Made by a program: the position numbers and the translations under genes. From Calditrichia bacterium (lineage in GTDB: Bacteria; Calditrichota; Calditrichia; RBG-13-44-9; J075), in NCBI GenBank assembly GCA_028284905.1, contig JANQQU010000015.1, positions 62,001-126,000 on the forward strand: a stretch of 64,000 nucleotides of DNA, written 5' to 3'. How positions within the stretch are numbered: the stretch's first letter is position 1; the number at the start of each line of letters is the position of its first letter. The notes under the pieces are model-generated. The model did not search any database. It worked only from the letters and a program-made list of their open reading frames with translations, and was not told the DNA's origin. Positions 7,382 through 16,980 of the stretch are shown here, piece after piece.

Positions 7382-7422
7382 AAATATGCATTATAACGAT
7401 AAAAACATTGACAAATTAACAA

Positions 7423-7467
7423 ATTGCAAATAGATTGTAGTCGAATGGTTTGCAAAATGCAACCATT
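7423..7467. promoter_or_regulatory. Candidate activator-binding sites (TTGCAAA type)
   Basis: Positions 7448-7460 (GTTTGCAAAATGC) are the exact reverse complement of 15816-15828 in the control region of the sigma-54 activator gene. ATTGCAAAT at 7423-7431 also recurs exactly at 15845-15853. The inverted repeat AATGGTT/AACCATT (7444-7450 and 7461-7467) encloses the 13-mer. The 13-mer lies about 85 bp upstream of a -24/-12-like sequence, a usual distance for enhancer sites of sigma-54 activators. That the same protein binds both places is inference. Confidence 0.45.
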
Positions 7468-7540: not shown

Positions 7541-7555
7541 TGGCTTAATTCTTGT
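7541..7555 (+). promoter_or_regulatory. Weak candidate sigma-54 (-24/-12) promoter
   Basis: TGGCTTAATTCTTGT has GG and a following G at the right spacing, with a TTG -12 core, but the usual GC at -12 is GT here. Transcription would start near 7566 and lead to the small gene at 7643. The call rests partly on the upstream 13-mer shared with 15816-15828. Confidence 0.35.
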
Positions 7556-7568
7556 CGATTCATTTCGG

Positions 7569-7642: not shown

Positions 7643-7984
7643 ATGCCGGAATCTACAACGATAGCCAATCGGACAAATTCTACCAAGGTCATTGTAGAAT
7701 ATACGAAGGAAGGAGAATCGTCAATTACTAAAACGATAATTGATCCACCGAGCAGTTATCCAGATGTCAAAATTTGTGAGGATATTTCCAAGGAGAACCT
7801 CCCTGTATTGGATCTGGATGATGCTAAACATAATACGGAAGTTACTATAACCTACGATGGTGTAACGAATGAAAAATATTTCGTTATTAAATTGGAAAAG
7901 GGATTAAAAAACCTGCAGTTGAAGTTTACTTACACCAAAGACCCAGGTGATGGTGCGACCGTTACATGGGGAGAAGATCATTAG
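7643..7984 (+). CDS. Small protein of unknown function
   Basis: The 113-residue product is not recognised. It is rich in Thr, Glu, Lys and alternating hydrophobics (KVIVEYTKEG, TEVTITYDGV, LQLKFTYTKD), as expected for an all-beta domain, and has no signal peptide or membrane segment. The ATG at 7643 has a perfect AGGAGG six bases upstream (7631-7636). A TTG at 7628 in the same frame is less likely. The next gene, a metalloprotease, begins 79 bp downstream on the same strand, so the two are probably cotranscribed. This protein could be its partner, substrate or inhibitor, but nothing in the sequence proves that. Confidence 0.75.
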   Translation: MPESTTIANRTNSTKVIVEYTKEGESSITKTIIDPPSSYPDVKICEDISKENLPVLDLDDAKHNTEVTITYDGVTNEKYFVIKLEKGLKNLQLKFTYTKDPGDGATVTWGEDH

Positions 7985-8063
7985 GAGTTCTCAGGAGTAG
8001 TTTTACTGACGGGAGGGAGGCTACAGACAAATTCCTTTACATTAAAAGCTCATGGAGATTAAA

Positions 8064-10196
8064 ATGATTGAGCTGCCGAAGGGCTGTGCCTCCGCATATC
8101 CATTGAGAAATGGATCTTATAAATTACGCGTAACGCTTGACAAATTACCAGAGTCATCTTTTCAGGGCACTTTACGCATCGATAAATCTCTCGATGAAAA
8201 GTATTTCATCAGCGGAGATTTATATAAAAAACGCACGAAGGGTATTAAAAAACGGAGTAAAAAGAAAGCGCCGTTATTACATCCGAATCCCAAGAAACGA
8301 ATACCAATTTACCCGATTGCAAACTACACTTTTTACCTTAGTGTGTCTGACATTAGGGACGCTACTGAAGATTCTCCAGACGTAAAATTTGATTTTGCGC
8401 TTTACGAGTTCGATCATATCCATTGCTTTTCTCCCCAACAAGATAACACTGCCCCATCAACCTGGCGCCTTGTTGGCAATTATACGGCTTTATTCACCCC
8501 AAATACCAAGAGAGGAAAGTTATTTTCGGACAACAGCTATGCAAATGGTATCATTCTTAGCAGGAGCGGTGCGTCAGCCGGAAAAATTGGGATAATGAGA
8601 ACTTCCGATTATTTACGAAGAGCCATCATTGAAATAGATAAGGAAGACTACACATTCTTTCCTTACCACAATGGTTCTGGTAGAGACTGGCACGACGTTT
8701 TTAATCAATTTGGGTGGGATGTTACCTTACTCGCCAGCGAATCGAAAGTTCAGAAAAAACATGATAACGCCTGGAGTCTTGGAGAGCTCCATCAGTTTGT
8801 TATGAATAATAGAGACATTGCGAATCTTGATCGCGCCTGGTGTTATCATTTGCTTTGTGTAAGAAGCTTGGAAAATTCATCCCGGGGAATTATGTATGAT
8901 TTCCGCATCGGAGATGACAATTCCAATGACCCCAACAATATTCCCCGTGAAGGTGCAGCAATTGTTTCCCCCATCGTAGATGAGAAGCGTCCACCTGCGC
9001 TGAAAAAATTCAGTGAGGATACCGCCTTCTACTTTCGTACTGCTTTGCATGAGGTAGGGCATGCAATGGGACTTGGTCATAACAAATCCGGCCTCAGTTT
9101 TATGCGGCCGACAAACCATGTGACAAGGGAAGCAGATTCTCCGAAAAAAATAAACTGGAATTTTTCAGTTGAAGATCAGTTTCACTTAAAGCATCTGCCG
9201 GATATTCGGGTCCGCCCCGGAGGCATCCCCTACGATGTATTAAAATCGAATGGGAATAGCAATATGCCAATGGACAGTTCATCACACAAACACGAAGCGG
9301 CCAGTAGTGATCATGGCCTGAGAATAAAATTAGAACCACAGCTGAAAGAATATCCCGCAGGAGCGCCAATACGGGTAAACCTTGAAATAATTAATCAGTC
9401 AACAACCGCAAACGAAGCTGAAGTTCCGTCATACCTGCAGTTACATTCAGGCTTAATGAAAGGCATGGTCCAGGCAGCAGCGGAGAAAGATGATTCTGCC
9501 CCAATGGTCATTCAACAGGTCTTATATTTTGCAGATGAAGACAGTTGGGAAAAACTGCCCGCTAGTGCCAGCAAGATTCACTCCTTCACATTGTTAAACA
9601 GCGGCGATCGATTACTCTTTTCCAACCCTGGAGAATACAAACTCGCGATAGAACTATCCTGGTCCAGCAATGACGGGCGCGTTTACCGAGTGCCGGCAAA
9701 TACATCTATTACCATTGCTCCAGTTTCTTCACAAGCAGAGAAGCATACCCTACTTATTAAAGAAATCTCCGACACTCCGGAATTGTTTTTATTACTGGCA
9801 TTAGGGGGAGGAGATCACCTCCGCAAGGGAATTCGATTATTAAACCGATTGCTGAAGTTCCCGCTTCTGGCACCGCACTATTCCCTTCTAAAAGCCCGGC
9901 AAATTGGCAATGACTTCTTTGCACGAAAGGGGAACTTTAAACGGATGTACAAAAGCGTTATGCAGGAAAGCTTGATGGGGATTAGCGAGATACGGGACAT
10001 TCTTAATTTAATAAAGCCGAGTGTCGTGGCACAAAAAGATTTCCCGAAGGCAAGTTTACTGCTCAATCATTTAGTCAAAAAAGTTGATGCTATGCGCACA
10101 TGGGCGACATATACCCAGGATTTAGATGCGCTTAGTACTAAGATTCGGGAGAAGGAGCAACAATTCACTGATCATTCCATCAATAAAATACCATAA
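8064..10196 (+). CDS. Matrixin-like zinc metalloprotease without signal peptide
   Basis: The zinc site HEVGHAMGLGH (HExxHxxGxxH, first His near residue 329 of 710) with a downstream Met in GLSFMRPT is the metzincin/matrixin signature, so zinc-dependent endopeptidase activity is expected. The first 320 residues and the last 280 do not match a domain I know. A region near residues 425-560 looks like an Ig-type fold (IRVNLEIINQS, YKLAIELSWSS), and the C-terminus is helical and basic. No signal peptide or lipobox is visible, which is unusual for this family. The ATG at 8064 has GGAG six bases upstream. An ATG at 8052 would add four residues. It probably forms an operon with 7643-7984 and lies 47 bp before the propeller phosphatase gene. 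Confidence 0.8.
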   Translation: MIELPKGCASAYPLRNGSYKLRVTLDKLPESSFQGTLRIDKSLDEKYFISGDLYKKRTKGIKKRSKKKAPLLHPNPKKRIPIYPIANYTFYLSVSDIRDATEDSPDVKFDFALYEFDHIHCFSPQQDNTAPSTWRLVGNYTALFTPNTKRGKLFSDNSYANGIILSRSGASAGKIGIMRTSDYLRRAIIEIDKEDYTFFPYHNGSGRDWHDVFNQFGWDVTLLASESKVQKKHDNAWSLGELHQFVMNNRDIANLDRAWCYHLLCVRSLENSSRGIMYDFRIGDDNSNDPNNIPREGAAIVSPIVDEKRPPALKKFSEDTAFYFRTALHEVGHAMGLGHNKSGLSFMRPTNHVTREADSPKKINWNFSVEDQFHLKHLPDIRVRPGGIPYDVLKSNGNSNMPMDSSSHKHEAASSDHGLRIKLEPQLKEYPAGAPIRVNLEIINQSTTANEAEVPSYLQLHSGLMKGMVQAAAEKDDSAPMVIQQVLYFADEDSWEKLPASASKIHSFTLLNSGDRLLFSNPGEYKLAIELSWSSNDGRVYRVPANTSITIAPVSSQAEKHTLLIKEISDTPELFLLLALGGGDHLRKGIRLLNRLLKFPLLAPHYSLLKARQIGNDFFARKGNFKRMYKSVMQESLMGISEIRDILNLIKPSVVAQKDFPKASLLLNHLVKKVDAMRTWATYTQDLDALSTKIREKEQQFTDHSINKIP

Positions 10197-10243
10197 TTGT
10201 TGTTTGGAAAACCCGTTATTATTTATAGGAAGCCTGTATTTAA

Positions 10244-13200
10244 ATGAAAGCTATTATATCAATACAAATCTTGATTTTCTTCTGCTTACTAATTGCCAGC
10301 AATGGTCTTATTAGCCAAGATGCAATTCAGTCCCCACCAAATTGGGAAAAAGGTGTTCCGCTAATCGAGAATTACTCCCAACAGGATTATTGGGGCTCGA
10401 AAAAAATTGCCCAACCGCAAAGCTGGAGTATTACCCAGGATCGAAACGGCATGATATATTTCGCCAACCAGGGCACTATACTTCAATATGACGGACGGGA
10501 GTGGCGGTCATTGAGTGATTCTGTTAACACCACCCGTTCTATTGCCAGCGACCAAAAGGGCAAGATTTTTGTTGGAGGCGTTAATAACTTTGGATATTTC
10601 GCAGCTGATTCTTCCGGTAAATTGGTCTACAACTCGCTATCAGAAAACCTTGACATTACTTCCCAAAAATTTGATAAAGTTTGGAAAATTGTAGTCTTAG
10701 AGAACAGGGTTTATTTCCTCACTTCAGCGGTTTTGTTCGAATGGGATTATTCGCAATTGAAGCAATATATGCCCAAGACAAAGTTTCATAACGCATTTGA
10801 TGTTCGCGGCGATTTGTTTGTAACCGATCGGGGGATAGGATTAAAGCAATTAAATGATAGCTTGTTGTCATTAGTTGCCGGCGGAGAAGCGTTTGCCGGC
10901 CAAAAAGTATATGCGATCTTTCCGATTACTGACACATCCGAGCTAATTATAACGCGAGAACAAGGAATTTTCATTCGTAATGAAAAGAACGTTAGCAGCT
11001 TTGGCTCTTCTTTGGTACAAAACTATCTTGTCCAGAACAGAGTTTCCGGTGGTTGTCAACTGGCAGATGGCAATTTCGCATTTTCCACTTTAAACGGTGG
11101 CATTGTTGTCATGGACCCACAGGGCAAAATTCAACGGTTAATCACAAAATCCGATGGATTAAAAGAGAACAATGTCAAATTTATTTTCCCTGATCGGGAG
11201 CAGGGTTTGTGGGCGGCGCTTAGCACCGGCATTTCCCGGATTGAAATTCCTGGCCCTATTTCAGTTATCGACGAACGCCTGGGGCTGGAGGGCATTCCGC
11301 AAAGCATTATCCGACATCAGGAGAAATTAGTTGTCGCGACAACTGTCGGGATTTTCACATGTATTGCCTCTGAAGTTAATGAAAAGCCCTGGCAAAGAAT
11401 TGCCCCCAATATTGGCACCACCTGGCATTTGATATCCGATGATGACTTTTTGATCGCAGCCACACAAAACGGTATTTACCAAATTCGAGGCAAGCAACTC
11501 AAGCTGCTTTATCCCGCGCCTTGTTTTCGAATGCTTAAATCGAGCATTGATACCAGGCGAATTTACGCCGGTACTCTCGGTGGGTTTATTAGCTTTTACC
11601 GAAATGAGCAGTCCTGGGAAAAGGAAGACTTCCATATTGACGGTGCCTTTCCAACCAGAACAATTGTAGAAAATAACCAGGGCGATATTTGGTATGGCAT
11701 ACCGAATCAGGGTCCATTCAAAATTGCTTTAGCAGATAGTAGTTCAAAATTAAATTTCGACAATCCGAAAATAATATCGCTTCGGGATAATCATGCCTTG
11801 GCTGGTAGTGAGTTTAATGTCTTTAAAAACAATAATATTATCCGCCTGGCAACAGCAACGATGCTTTATCGCATCATAGATGAAACTCCCCCACGCTTAC
11901 TAGCGGATTCCGCTTTCGGCACAAAATTTATAAATGGTAAAGATTATATTTTTCGCCTGGAAACAGATCCTGCAAACAACATTTGGATTCATGCCAACAA
12001 CGAAACAATGTTTGCTGAACTACAAAACGACGGTAGTTTTTCAATTCATGACAAAGATCTAATGCGAATCCCGGAAGCCCAGATAAATGCCCTGCTCCCC
12101 GAAAAAGATGGGTTAGTTTGGCTAGGCGGTAGAGATGGTATTTTCCGTTACGATACAAAAAGCCAAAAAGATATTACGCAAGCACCGCCAACACTCATCC
12201 GTAGAATTTCAGTTTCTGGCGATTCATTATTCTATTCCGGTAATTCAAACCTGGGATTAACGCCTCCGCAACTTATACTTCCGGAAGCGCAAAGCATGGT
12301 TCGATTCGAATATGCCCTGCCCAGTTTTGATAATGCGCCGGCGAATCAATATCGTGTGTTTTTGGAAGGTTTTGACAATGACTGGTCGGACTGGAGCAGT
12401 GAGTCATATAAGGAATATAGCCAGCTACCGAATGGGGATTTTAACTTTCGCGTGCAGGCAAGGAACATTTATCAAACGATTGCAAAGGAAAGAAATTTCA
12501 GTTTTACTATCACACCCCATATATACAAAACATGGTGGTTCCTAACAATTACATTCATCTTTGCTTCAACTGCAATCGCATTAGTAGTGGCTCGCTATAC
12601 TCGGAATAGAACTCATCGATTTTACGTGCAGAAAGAGCTTGAGACGGCTAAATCTTTCCAACAAATATTATTACCACAAGAACCGCTGAAGATTCCCGGA
12701 TATGATATTTTTGGAAAATGCCACATCGCCTATGATGTTGGAGGGGATCATTATGATTTTTTCTGGCTGGACGAAGACGAAAAGACTGAATTGATTGTTT
12801 GTGTCGTTGATGTGGAAGGCAAAAGAATGGATGGTGCAATGTATTCTGTGTTAATCAATGGGATGATTAATATGGCCTTTCATTCTGATCCGGGGCAGAC
12901 CCTTCCGGTTATCTATAAAAACATAAACAACTCTCTGCTAAACTTTAAATATGGACATTCAATTTCGCTATTGCTTGGCAAGTTGGATATTAAAACGGGT
13001 CAATTTGTTTATTGCAATGCCGGTTGCCCCTCACCTGTAATAAAATATGATGATCAATTACGCCCGATTCAAACAACCAATGATCGTTATCGACCAGCCT
13101 TAGGAAAAATTTATGGAATGGAATATCCGCAAAATAAATGCGTGATCAAAAAAGGAGAGATTTTATTTTTATTTTCGGATGGCCTTACTGAAATCAAACC

Positions 13201-13369
13201 ACCGGCCGGCGAAAAAAACGCCAATCCTATTAAACAGATTCTAAAAAATCTGCAAACAAATTTACCGGCAAGCGAAATGTCTTCAAACATTTTTCAGGAA
13301 GTAAGCAAATATGAAAGTATAGAACCAAATCAAGATGATAAAACCTTGATTGTCATTAAACGGGATTAA
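10244..13369 (+). CDS. Propeller-sensor SpoIIE-type PP2C phosphatase
   Basis: This 1041-residue membrane protein has a signal peptide or anchor (residues 1-22) and a periplasmic beta-propeller sensor of the two-component-propeller type. A Y_Y_Y-like domain covers about 665-755 (QYRVFLEGFDNDWSDW), and one membrane helix lies near 763-783. The cytoplasmic SpoIIE/PP2C domain starts with the linker AKSFQQILLPQEPLKIPGYD. Metal-binding acidic motifs are VGGDHYDFF near 833, VVDVEGKRMDGAM, LFSDGLTE and a terminal QDDKT. SpoIIE-type phosphatases remove phosphate from the Ser of STAS partner proteins. A STAS gene lies 22 bp away, convergent, and its operon also encodes an RsbW-like HATPase domain. This is the probable input of that partner switch. 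Confidence 0.9.
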   Translation: MKAIISIQILIFFCLLIASNGLISQDAIQSPPNWEKGVPLIENYSQQDYWGSKKIAQPQSWSITQDRNGMIYFANQGTILQYDGREWRSLSDSVNTTRSIASDQKGKIFVGGVNNFGYFAADSSGKLVYNSLSENLDITSQKFDKVWKIVVLENRVYFLTSAVLFEWDYSQLKQYMPKTKFHNAFDVRGDLFVTDRGIGLKQLNDSLLSLVAGGEAFAGQKVYAIFPITDTSELIITREQGIFIRNEKNVSSFGSSLVQNYLVQNRVSGGCQLADGNFAFSTLNGGIVVMDPQGKIQRLITKSDGLKENNVKFIFPDREQGLWAALSTGISRIEIPGPISVIDERLGLEGIPQSIIRHQEKLVVATTVGIFTCIASEVNEKPWQRIAPNIGTTWHLISDDDFLIAATQNGIYQIRGKQLKLLYPAPCFRMLKSSIDTRRIYAGTLGGFISFYRNEQSWEKEDFHIDGAFPTRTIVENNQGDIWYGIPNQGPFKIALADSSSKLNFDNPKIISLRDNHALAGSEFNVFKNNNIIRLATATMLYRIIDETPPRLLADSAFGTKFINGKDYIFRLETDPANNIWIHANNETMFAELQNDGSFSIHDKDLMRIPEAQINALLPEKDGLVWLGGRDGIFRYDTKSQKDITQAPPTLIRRISVSGDSLFYSGNSNLGLTPPQLILPEAQSMVRFEYALPSFDNAPANQYRVFLEGFDNDWSDWSSESYKEYSQLPNGDFNFRVQARNIYQTIAKERNFSFTITPHIYKTWWFLTITFIFASTAIALVVARYTRNRTHRFYVQKELETAKSFQQILLPQEPLKIPGYDIFGKCHIAYDVGGDHYDFFWLDEDEKTELIVCVVDVEGKRMDGAMYSVLINGMINMAFHSDPGQTLPVIYKNINNSLLNFKYGHSISLLLGKLDIKTGQFVYCNAGCPSPVIKYDDQLRPIQTTNDRYRPALGKIYGMEYPQNKCVIKKGEILFLFSDGLTEIKPPAGEKNANPIKQILKNLQTNLPASEMSSNIFQEVSKYESIEPNQDDKTLIVIKRD

Positions 13370-13391: not shown

Positions 13392-13751
13392 TTATTCGGA
13401 ATGTTTTGAAAGCGCATCCAATGCATCTTTTTCTTCTTTGTAGATTCGGCCTTCGCAAAGAAAGAGAATTCCGGTATCCCGGCACATGTCTTCCACCATC
13501 ATCTCGCGAACACAGCAAATTGCCAGGGACTGACCATGCTTGTTAAGGAAGTTGTATAATTCCAGTATGGCGGCTGCCCCATGACTATTGATTAATTCCA
13601 CTTTTTCCATATTCAAGAGAAATGTTTTCGGAGCGTCCGCCCAACCGTTTTCAATATTACTTATTAAACTTTGTTTGAAACTAAGATTTATATAGTCCGG
13701 TGGATAAATGACTAAGACGTCTCCTTTGGCTTCAGAAACGAGTTTTTTCAT
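13392..13751 (-). CDS. STAS-domain anti-sigma-factor-antagonist-like protein
   Basis: The 119-residue protein is one STAS domain. The motif VELINSHGAAAILEL aligns with the DSSG/DSTG loop of SpoIIAA and RsbV, and Ser56 falls on their phosphorylated Ser. The preceding Asp is Asn here. The protein presumably switches between phosphorylated and free forms through the kinase domain encoded just upstream and the SpoIIE phosphatase encoded convergently. GGAGGG lies four bases before the ATG, and only 11 bp separate it from the upstream sigma-54 activator gene, so the two form an operon. No classical anti-sigma or sigma factor gene is next to it, which points to the fused HATPase domain of the activator as partner. 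Confidence 0.85.
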   Translation of the reverse strand: MKKLVSEAKGDVLVIYPPDYINLSFKQSLISNIENGWADAPKTFLLNMEKVELINSHGAAAILELYNFLNKHGQSLAICCVREMMVEDMCRDTGILFLCEGRIYKEEKDALDALSKHSE

Positions 13752-13762
13752 CTAGCCCTCCA

Positions 13763-15589
13763 TTAGTTTCGATTAATAGCCATGATTATTTTTGTGCCGG
13801 CATTACCCGAATCAATTTTTACATCGTCCATCGACTTATTAATAATATGTAACCCCCACCCTCTTGTTTCTCCGTTTTTTACCTTCTCTTCGATGCTTTT
13901 AATTGGCTTAATTTTCGTTTGGTCGAAACCAACGCCCTCATCCTCCACGGTAATTTTAAATTTTCGCGGGGTGACGAGGAAGTGCAATTTAATTTTTCCA
14001 TTACTATCTTCGCTATGTTCTACAGCATTTATAATAGCCTCTATAATAGATCTCTTAACGGCAACGGCTTGTTTTTTGGAAAGCTTTGCATCTAAAATTA
14101 ATTCTTCAGCTTCTTTCAATGCTTTGAGCTCCGCTCGTTCTTCCATCGGCAATGTAAGCCATTTTTCATTACGAGCTTGCAAATAGCGTTGTAATCGGCG
14201 ATGATCAATCTTCAACAGCCGCATTGTTTCATTCGTTTTGCCACCGGTTTTATCGAAAGCAAATTTAACATATCTGCCGATTGCCTTCTCTAATGGCTCA
14301 ACATTTTCGAAAGTTAATGAATGACCATGTGCCGGATAACGCACTTCTTCCGGTAAATGCTCTACATCGATAAGGTTATTATTGCAAAAGATATAAGCGC
14401 TCTCAATAACATGTTTTAGTTCTCGAACATTGCCCGGCCAAACAGATTTTCGTAACTGCGTTATTGCACGGGGTGTTATGTCTTTAATTTTTTTGGATTT
14501 ATTTTTACTATTTAACACCCGAATAAAATGCCTCGCCAATCGACCAATATCCTCTGTACGCTCCCGCAAGGGTGGAATTTCCAGAGCAACCGTTTTGAGG
14601 CGATAATACAAATCTTCTCTAAATTTTCCAGCTTCGACCTCCACTTTCAAATCTTTATTGGTTGCGGAAATTAATTGAAAGTCTGACTTGTATACTTTAT
14701 TGCTGCCAATAGGAGAATAACTGCCATCTTCTAACACTCTTAAGAGTTTGGATTGTAGTTCGAGAGGCATTTCTCCTATTTCATCGAGGAATAGAGTGCC
14801 GCCATTAGCTGCTGAAATTTTTCCTTCCCGATTATTAATCGCACCCGTAAATGCACCTTTTTCATGCCCAAAAAGCTCACTTTCAATCAAATTTTCCGGC
14901 AGTGCTGCGCAGTTAACAACAATGTAGTTTTTATCTTTTCGAAATCCGTTTTCATAAATTGCCCGGGCGATAATCTCTTTTCCGACGCCACTTTCGCCCT
15001 GGATGAGAACTGTAACATTTAATTCTTGGGCAGTAATAAATTTTACTCTCTCTTTAACCGCTTCAATAGCGACACTCTCGCCTACTATGGCCGGTATATC
15101 CACATCATTAATCTGAGATTTTAACTGCAAATTTTCTGCCAGTAATACAGATCTTTCCAATATGATCGAAGCGGTCGTCGCAAAGGCAGTAAATATGGCT
15201 TTGCTATGCGTAGAAAATACAGCTTCACCGGATTCTATTTGCGGATCAGAAACATATATAGCCCCGGCGACTTGTCCATGCAACCAAAGTGGCGTAGCGA
15301 GTTGAGTTGGTTTCTCAATCATAAAATCGCTATTTGAGGCATCAAATTTTTCCAGCCATGATTTGATTTTTTGTCGATTTATTTTCCTTGAGTCGATATC
15401 ACCAAAAGGGATAAGATCATCTGTTTCCTGTAGATACAAAGCACCACCACTTGCATCTATTGCGGCGATAGTCTCTAAAAGTATACTACGGAGTAGCTTT
15501 TGAGTCGATTCTCCTTGCGCAAATGCAAGCCGAAAAGCCCTGGCCTGATATAACAAAGTTTTTCTTTCGCGATGCATAATAGCTGACAT
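13763..15589 (-). CDS. Sigma-54 activator fused to an RsbW-like HATPase domain
   Basis: Domains in this 608-residue protein: GAF-like sensor (about 15-148); AAA+ sigma-54 activator with Walker A GESGVGKE (198-205), sigma-54 contact loop GAFTGA (245-250), Walker B TLFLDE (265-270), arginine-finger region FREDLYYRL and WPGNVREL (384-391); Fis-type HTH (about 445-471, [19 protein letters not shown]); and a C-terminal HATPase_c domain with N-box [10 protein letters not shown] (517-526), DEGVGF (550-555) and GWGLHII (577-583). The last domain resembles anti-sigma Ser kinases of the RsbW/SpoIIAB type, not His kinases, as no phospho-His domain is present. Activators normally end at the HTH, so this order is unusual. 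GAGGT precedes the ATG by four bases. The STAS gene follows in the operon. It probably activates the nearby -24/-12 promoters, including its own. Confidence 0.9.
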
Positions 15590-15723
15590 ATTTACCTCAC
15601 AATCCCAAAATACATGACACTACCATCTCCAGAGCATTTTTCATGGAAGACGGCGTTCACCGTATTTTTCAAATAAAAATATTGATATGAAATGGTTTAT
15701 TTTAATTAGGTAAACATTGAAAA

Positions 15724-15739
15724 TGCAAATAATGTGCCT
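15724..15739 (-). promoter_or_regulatory. Sigma-54 (-24/-12) promoter of the activator-STAS operon
   Basis: Read on the minus strand, AGGCACATTATTTGCA matches the sigma-54 consensus TGGCAC-N5-TTGCA at all key bases except the first T. GG lies at 15738-15737 and GC at 15726-15725, ten bases apart. Transcription would begin near 15713, giving a leader of about 120 nt before the start codon at 15589. It implies sigma-54-dependent autoregulation. Confidence 0.7.
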
Positions 15740-15815
15740 TTCAAAAACGGTAATCAAAATAACATTTCAATCGAATATATATTAATTAAACGACCATGTC
15801 AACGTTCAATTAATA

Positions 15816-15853
15816 GCATTTTGCAAACAGACAAACACAAAAAGATTGCAAAT
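15816..15853. promoter_or_regulatory. Candidate enhancer sites between divergent sigma-54 promoters
   Basis: GCATTTTGCAAAC (15816-15828) and ATTGCAAAT (15845-15853) both recur exactly upstream of the gene at 7643. The first lies about 85 bp from the leftward promoter and about 150 bp from the rightward promoter, normal distances for activator sites. ATGCAAAT also occurs within the leftward promoter and ATGCAATT near 15886, so the region is dense in the motif. Confidence 0.45.
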
Positions 15854-15970
15854 TGCACATACATCAACAGCTAAGCAGTAGTGAAATGCAATTAAACTCA
15901 ACTTTCTCAACCTCCACCAAAACTCCACAAAGCTTTCAAAAACAGGTACTTAAACCAGCCTCGATATTTT

Positions 15971-15986
15971 TGGTATGTCCCTTGCA
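15971..15986 (+). promoter_or_regulatory. Sigma-54 (-24/-12) promoter of the hairpin RNA
   Basis: TGGTATGTCCCTTGCA has GG (15972-15973) and GC (15984-15985) separated by exactly ten bases and a TTGCA -12 element, a good sigma-54 match. Transcription would start near 15997. No open reading frame follows. The downstream region holds three conserved hairpins and a terminator. Confidence 0.75.
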
Positions 15987-16061
15987 TAAAAAGCTAATAA
16001 AAGATAACAGGGAAAAATTAGATTGAAATTAAACAACAACGTAAAGATTAATTCTTACCTT

Positions 16062-16268
16062 CCCTGGCCCTTTCTTCGAGTGGCGGATTGGGCCGGGGAG
16101 GGGTTATAAAAGCAAAAAAGTTTTATCCTAACACTCCTGGCCCTTTCTTCGAGTGGCGGATTGGGCCGGGGGCGTTATTTAAACTGAAAACTTGTAATCC
16201 GGCGGCTTGATGCATTTGCATTGAGGGAGTACCCCGCTCCTTCTTTAGAGTGGCGAGAGGGAGCGGGG
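16062..16268 (+). repeat. Three tandem hairpin repeats
   Basis: Copy 1 pairs 16062-16070 with 16090-16098. Copy 2 pairs 16134-16143 with 16163-16172. Copy 3 pairs 16232-16240 with 16260-16268. Loops are 19 nt in all three. Copies 1 and 2 are nearly identical over about 37 nt. Copy 3 shares the loop core but has different stem bases: one G-C pair became C-G and one C-G became T-A. Spacing between copies is irregular (about 72 and 98 nt), unlike a CRISPR array. Confidence 0.85.
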
Positions 16269-16324
16269 GAAAACATTTTAGTTGAGAAAATATCCCTGTT
16301 GGGGAGAGGTTGAAAAGTGCCCAT

Positions 16325-16364
16325 GTGGCTGTATGATGGCTTTGCCATCTGCAGCCACTTTTTT
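16325..16364 (+). terminator. Rho-independent terminator of the hairpin RNA
   Basis: GTGGCTG (16325-16331) pairs with CAGCCAC (16352-16358), and inside it GATGGC (16335-16340) pairs with GCCATC (16344-16349). A run of six T follows at once. It ends the rightward transcript and may also serve the convergent gene whose stop codon lies at 16363. Confidence 0.85.
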
Positions 16365-16980
16365 ATTTTAAAGCAAGATAATCGAGCAACCTACTGACAA
16401 ATGAATGTCTTTTTTTAGCCCGCAAATGGTTTAACGTAAATGGAAGTAATACTAACGTCAGATAAATAATCAATGTTACGCCGGACCAAAAGACCGGTTT
16501 CTGAAAGACCAATGGCGAAATACCGAAATCCTTGAAAACGAATTCAGGGATACTTTCCATTAGAAAAGTCACAACGCCCCAAATTATTGCAACGACATAT
16601 TGCCAACTGGAAAAAGGGAACAATCCGGATATGCCAAATCGGGTATTATACTTGGCCATTTTCTCAAAATCGACATCGGCATATTTTGCTTTAATGAATT
16701 CTCCCAGTTCGTTCAGTGGATATTTGGAAACATAGACAGAGTAGAACGGATTTTTCTTATCCATTTCACCGATTGTATTGTCGACAATTTCCTTGAATAC
16801 GACCGGTTGGGATTGTGATAATTTTCGGCTTTTATCCAGTAAATTTGAGACCACTTTACCTACATTTGTCATTCGTTTGGCAATATTTACCGGATTATTT
16901 ACTTTGCGGGAAATCTTTAAAGCGTAGTCATAGTACTCAAGCACATCTGTGGAGATATTGTCGTATTGTTCCTGAAGGTT
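16363..16980 (-). CDS. Membrane protein of unknown function with two C-terminal helices
   Basis: I do not recognise this 205-residue protein. The first 130 residues are helical and charged, probably cytoplasmic. Two hydrophobic helices follow (WQYVVAIIWGVVTFLM and VTLIIYLTLVLLPFTL), then a basic tail (RAKKRHSF). The start at 16980 is chosen because AAGGA lies five bases upstream. The longer frame from 17043 would overlap the upstream gene. It is the last gene of a four-gene minus-strand run with the HAD hydrolase, TPR and TolB-like genes and lies 19 bp after the TolB-like gene. Confidence 0.7.
   Translation of the reverse strand, partial: NLQEQYDNISTDVLEYYDYALKISRKVNNPVNIAKRMTNVGKVVSNLLDKSRKLSQSQPVVFKEIVDNTIGEMDKKNPFYSVYVSKYPLNELGEFIKAKYADVDFEKMAKYNTRFGISGLFPFSSWQYVVAIIWGVVTFLMESIPEFVFKDFGISPLVFQKPVFWSGVTLIIYLTLVLLPFTLNHLRAKKRHSFVSRLLDYLALK

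Follow-up and report, generated by a model that had tools for sequence, protein, structure and literature searches.

The window analysed, a 64,000-nucleotide stretch of a Calditrichia bacterium contig, contains a group of partner-switch and sigma-54 genes beside a gene-free stretch predicted to specify a structured RNA. Features are given below by position and strand, with sigma-54 sites scored against the consensus TGGCACR-N4-TTGCW (maximum 12).

7416–7463, no strand: two dyads 33 bp apart (7416 and 7449), upstream of the protease/phosphatase operon
7541–7556, + strand: tentative weak sigma-54-like site, TGGCTTAATTCTTGTC, 8/12, with TTGT instead of TTGC
7643–7984, + strand: small conserved protein, encoded by the operon's first gene
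8052–10196, + strand: metallopeptidase-like protein (HEVGHAMGLGH), in an operon with the gene at 10244
10244–13369, + strand: SpoIIE/PP2C phosphatase with Reg_prop and Y_Y_Y sensor
13392–13751, − strand: STAS anti-anti-sigma-like protein with a conserved N-S-x-G serine
13763–15589, − strand: fused activator with GAF-like N-terminus, AAA+ sigma-54 domain (GAFTGA), Fis-type HTH region and RsbW-like ATPase
15724–15739, − strand: sigma-54 promoter of the activator gene, AGGCACATTATTTGCA, 11/12
15774–15802, − strand: sigma-70-like site TTGACA-N17-TATATT (11 of 12), possible basal activator promoter
15813–15827, no strand: dyad ATAGCATTTTGCAAA, possible activator binding site
15845–15859, no strand: dyad ATTGCAAATTGCACA, approximately midway between the two sigma-54 promoters
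15971–15986, + strand: sigma-54 promoter (−24/−12) of the RNA, TGGTATGTCCCTTGCA, 10/12, GG-N10-GC
15997–16366, + strand: predicted non-coding RNA without a credible reading frame
16062–16098, + strand: hairpin H1, 9-bp stem, loop with GAGTGGCG (folding, alignment)
16135–16171, + strand: hairpin H2, a tandem duplicate nearly identical to H1, the two lying 73 bp apart (folding, repeat comparison, alignment)
16232–16268, + strand: hairpin H3, in which the stem has diverged, two pairs being compensatory, and the loop has the same GAGTGGCG (folding, alignment)
16325–16369, + strand: terminator stem-loop and T tract (sequence and folding)

The proteins encoded here include each component of a partner switch, namely a PP2C phosphatase, a STAS protein with a phosphorylatable serine and an RsbW-like kinase domain, the N, G1 and G2 motifs of which were recognized by inspection. 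The last of these forms the C-terminus of the sigma-54 activator, with the STAS gene adjoining and the SpoIIE-type phosphatase gene convergent, bearing out the fused partner-switch activator proposed in the initial annotation. The GAF-like N-terminus of the activator (without a Pfam hit) and its Fis-type HTH were also assigned by inspection. All five module proteins are kept in G003, a genome of the same family, with identities of 40% for the activator, 30% for the phosphatase, 28% for the small protein, 24% for the peptidase and 22% for the STAS protein, and the activator has conserved GAFTGA and, in its fused ATPase domain, conserved ATP-binding motifs. The operon at 7643–13369, encoding the small protein, the metallopeptidase-like protein and the SpoIIE-type phosphatase, is conserved alongside the fused activator in G003. 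When 192 genomes were searched with the C-terminal part of the activator, a full match was obtained in G003 only, and the other matches with a readable frame were not sigma-54 activator fusions; a contig search with the activator protein returned just two distant AAA+ relatives. No description of a fusion between a sigma-54 activator and an RsbW-like ATPase was found in the open-licence literature. In distant genomes, large ATPase-like proteins (L080 94–1926 and L086 256–1944) end in the same RsbW-like domain and represent another apparent partner-switch kinase fusion. The genome under study encodes RpoN and CsrA; Hfq was not found in it using a model that detected Hfq in control genomes.

The activator gene is adjacent to and divergent from the predicted RNA, and two divergent sigma-54 sites lie within one 411-bp gap. 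Among 3,000 shuffles of the region 15590–16010, 3.5% contained a site scoring 10/12 or better, counting both strands, and 0.1% contained two such sites, as the real region does. The RNA promoter, TGGTATG-TCCC-TTGCA, is the weaker of the two (10/12 versus 11/12) and the further from a pair of dyads of the form TTTGCA-N3-TGCAAA, which lie 32 bp apart between the divergent promoters. Measured from the dyad centres, the distances to the GG of the activator promoter are approximately 83 and 114 bp, and those to the GG of the RNA promoter are 152 and 121 bp. The dyad-to-activator-promoter spacing is conserved in G003, where two perfect dyads, the only ones in that 8.2-Mb genome, are located approximately 81 and 111 bp upstream of the GG of the activator's sigma-54 site; one dyad and a sigma-54 site also precede the orthologous operon there. 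No dyads spaced 28–34 bp apart arose when either of these two regions of the window was shuffled 4,000 times, and four of the seven best dyads in the window fall within the two module gaps, which together occupy about 1% of it (P 4e-7). These probabilities are indicative, since the consensus was partly drawn from the same regions. Some matches to the combined dyad and sigma-54 pattern were present outside the module when the genome was searched. The dyads are putative binding sites of the activator and provide a clear, mutable candidate for probing the circuit. In G003 a subtilisin-like protease gene (L149 7165–9204, G003:C80), whose product has weak similarity to IetS defence proteases, carries dyads and a sigma-54 site (CGGCACCCAACTTGCC) upstream and is a probable extra target of the activator. 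A sigma-54-like site (TGGCCTGGCATTTGCA) is also present directly upstream of a probable lipoprotein gene (L109 1491, G000:C11).

The start of the RNA near 15997 was predicted from promoter geometry, giving a length of approximately 370 nt. The folding energy of the predicted RNA is −150 kcal/mol (z −7.2), a value equalled by none of 100 shuffles, and the + strand is favoured as the functional RNA because the complementary strand folds less well (−107 kcal/mol, z −4.2). No ORF of more than 40 amino acids starts within the transcript on the + strand, and a small peptide encoded by the transcript was rejected as no ORF had a convincing start. The terminator was not listed by a simple terminator scan, although folding revealed a stem at 16325–16358 followed by TTTTTTATTTT, on the + strand only. 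Within the RNA, H1, H2 and H3 each fold with z values of −4.2 to −4.6, have a GC content of 68–70% compared with 45% for the window, and have the exact loop GAGUGGCG in common. They align without gaps, with all nine stem pairs formed in 3/3 sequences (100% paired), and between H1/H2 and H3 two stem pairs are changed on both sides whilst the loop core GAGTGGCG is invariant. Since H1 and H2 are near-identical tandem copies, these represent two independent hairpin versions rather than three. The compensatory changes are suggestive of selection on the stem but not proof of it, given so few sequences and the 66/500 column shuffles that matched the observed covariation. The initial annotation had described a promoter with GG and GC exactly 10 bases apart and TTGCA at −12, some 370 bp without a reading frame, three related stem-loops and a terminator, and these observations were confirmed; the three stem-loops all fold and align, with the reservation that only two of them are independent.

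Relatives of the RNA were sought widely. A covariance model of the hairpin was run against 59 other genomes, among them 39 others of the phylum, and gave no significant match; plasmid and phage collections contained no hairpin match either. Exact 16-mers in viral contigs were present once each and scored weakly with the model, in keeping with chance. The RNA matched no Rfam family at gathering score, and up to an E value of 10 only sub-threshold miRNA chance matches were seen. Nor was a copy detectable in G003, despite the same proteins and dyads, and no structured RNA was found in the protease-side gap of that genome (L149 6560–6950; z +1.4 and −0.7). The presence of the proteins and dyads in G003, where the RNA is missing, indicates that the RNA is not essential to the module. 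No genome besides G003 was found to have the module, and with the RNA missing there, it may be a recent, lineage-specific output.

One alternative is that the hairpins represent repeat DNA, palindromes of a REP or MITE-like kind lying between two genes without any RNA function. Their high GC content and the tandem duplication of H1/H2 are in keeping with this, and the genome does carry another, dispersed GC-rich palindrome, the shortest copy of which scores 26.9 bits with the hairpin model. However, the 8.55-Mb genome has only three copies of the motif, every one at this locus, where a REP or MITE would have many dispersed copies; the conserved flanks of the dispersed family are missing from H1–H3; and inert repeats would not be expected to come with a promoter, compensatory changes in their stems, a strand bias and a terminator that acts in one direction. 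We consider repeat DNA an improbable explanation. Kinship of H1–H3 with the genome's dispersed CCCCGGCCCCTCTCC palindromes was rejected as no flanks are shared. About six dispersed GC-rich palindromes (ACCCCCGGCCCCTCTCC..., L053–L061 and L052 7879–7920) with conserved flanks and a MITE-like appearance were recorded in this genome.

The + strand sigma-54 site could alternatively be a chance match, with the RNA either transcribed from a different promoter or not made, and sigma-54 acting only at the activator promoter (15739). The 3.5% of shuffles of this gap with a comparable site would allow this, as would the dyads, which are closer to the activator promoter and conserved there. The site nevertheless lies directly upstream of the hairpins in the correct direction and spacing, and a promoter scan found no sigma-70-like site before them on the + strand, making chance unlikely. 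A third explanation accepts sigma-54 control and has the RNA titrate CsrA through GGA motifs, as Rsm/Csr RNAs do. The presence of CsrA in a genome where Hfq was not found fits with this, and three of the eight GGA motifs in the RNA are largely unpaired. There is no enrichment, though (eight GGA against a shuffle mean of 9.8, and three ANGGA against 2.5); the conserved loop core GAGUGGCG lacks GGA, the H3 loop has none at all, and the loop GGA of H1 and H2 is predicted to be paired. A CsrA sponge thus seems quite unlikely.

The preferred reading is a sigma-54-dependent, trans-acting regulatory RNA controlled by the partner-switching activator, to which we assign a probability of roughly 0.6. 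The promoters, dyads, hairpins, terminator and protein domains are evident in the sequence itself. Several features of sigma-54-dependent small RNAs adjacent to their activators, of the CrcZ/NrsZ kind, are found here: a −24/−12 promoter with GG-N10-GC, rpoN in the genome, an adjacent sigma-54 activator gene, putative upstream activator sites in the form of paired dyads, no coding sequence and an intrinsic terminator. The reading as a sigma-54-dependent small RNA is supported and strengthened by the second, better and divergent sigma-54 site on the activator gene and by paired dyads that recur at another module promoter and in a related genome. The earlier interpretation as a whole is partly supported: the prediction of such an RNA beside its probable, fused activator is upheld, whereas the module is conserved in G003 without a detectable copy of the RNA.

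In partner switching a phosphatase dephosphorylates a STAS protein, which in its unphosphorylated form binds an ATPase domain. At this locus the membrane SpoIIE-type PP2C phosphatase, with its sensor propeller, would dephosphorylate the STAS protein, which would then bind the RsbW-like ATPase domain of the activator and alter its activity; as this domain is fused to the activator, STAS binding would directly alter activator output. Binding might either relieve or impose inhibition. The activator would bind the paired TTTGCA-N3-TGCAAA dyads and drive three transcripts, comprising its own gene with that of the STAS protein, the small-protein/peptidase/phosphatase operon, and the RNA. The approximately 370-nt RNA, if transcribed as predicted, would act in trans, displaying three copies of one loop on stems that are rigid and GC-rich. 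Repeated loops of this design are used both by RNAs with several mRNA partners and by RNAs that titrate a protein. The loops here would most likely base-pair with mRNAs without Hfq, the alternative being titration of an RNA-binding protein. In duplex predictions within the window, H3 ranked several module genes high and H1 gave no such ranking; as the best H3 energies were no better than those of shuffled loops, no RNA target is claimed. A broader proposal is tentative: that a partner switch built into a sigma-54 activator controls a new-family, multi-loop, Hfq-independent regulatory RNA in a phylum whose small RNAs are nearly unstudied. If correct, one locus would link serine-phosphorylation partner switching, sigma-54 and RNA regulation, and would offer a small RNA open to testing in a phylum that has been little studied and in a genome where Hfq was not found.

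Control of sigma-54 activators is usually exerted through phosphorelay, ligand binding or a partner protein. The locus resembles several known systems in its logic, although membership of their families was not found. CrcZ of Pseudomonas, driven by CbrB and sigma-54, is a small RNA transcribed as its own unit beside the gene of its activator (PMC8871633), as predicted here. It differs in lying downstream of cbrB rather than divergent from the activator gene, in depending on a two-component response regulator rather than an activator with a fused partner-switch domain, and in titrating Hfq/Crc, whereas no Hfq was found here. NrsZ of Pseudomonas aeruginosa, under NtrC and sigma-54, is a processed RNA of approximately 226 nt from the gap beside ntrC that interacts with the rhlA leader (PMC8395346). 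The predicted RNA would likewise arise from a gap beside its probable activator gene; NrsZ however is under two-component control with unrelated neighbours, and no common sequence family was detected. Assignment to the CrcZ or NrsZ family proper was rejected for want of an Rfam match at gathering score, which presupposes that Rfam covers both families. In P. aeruginosa the HsbR-HsbA partner switch (PP2C, kinase, STAS) controls production of the small regulatory RNA RsmY (PMC6482189), and a partner switch governing a small RNA is likewise proposed here. That system acts via RpoS and a diguanylate cyclase alongside GacA, whereas here the sigma-54 activator itself carries the kinase domain. The syp cluster of Vibrio fischeri is under the sigma-54 regulator SypG. 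V. fischeri has the partner-switch proteins SypE (kinase) and SypA (STAS) (PMC10120452). Kinase and sigma-54 activator are separate proteins there rather than fused. To our knowledge no RNA of the present type belongs to the Syp system. Given CrcZ and NrsZ as precedents for sigma-54 RNAs beside their own activator genes, the system is not of the wholly undescribed kind for which it had first been named a candidate. Its distinctive features are an activator of which a partner-switch kinase domain forms part and, among the probable outputs of that activator, a structured loop-repeat RNA with no known relative.
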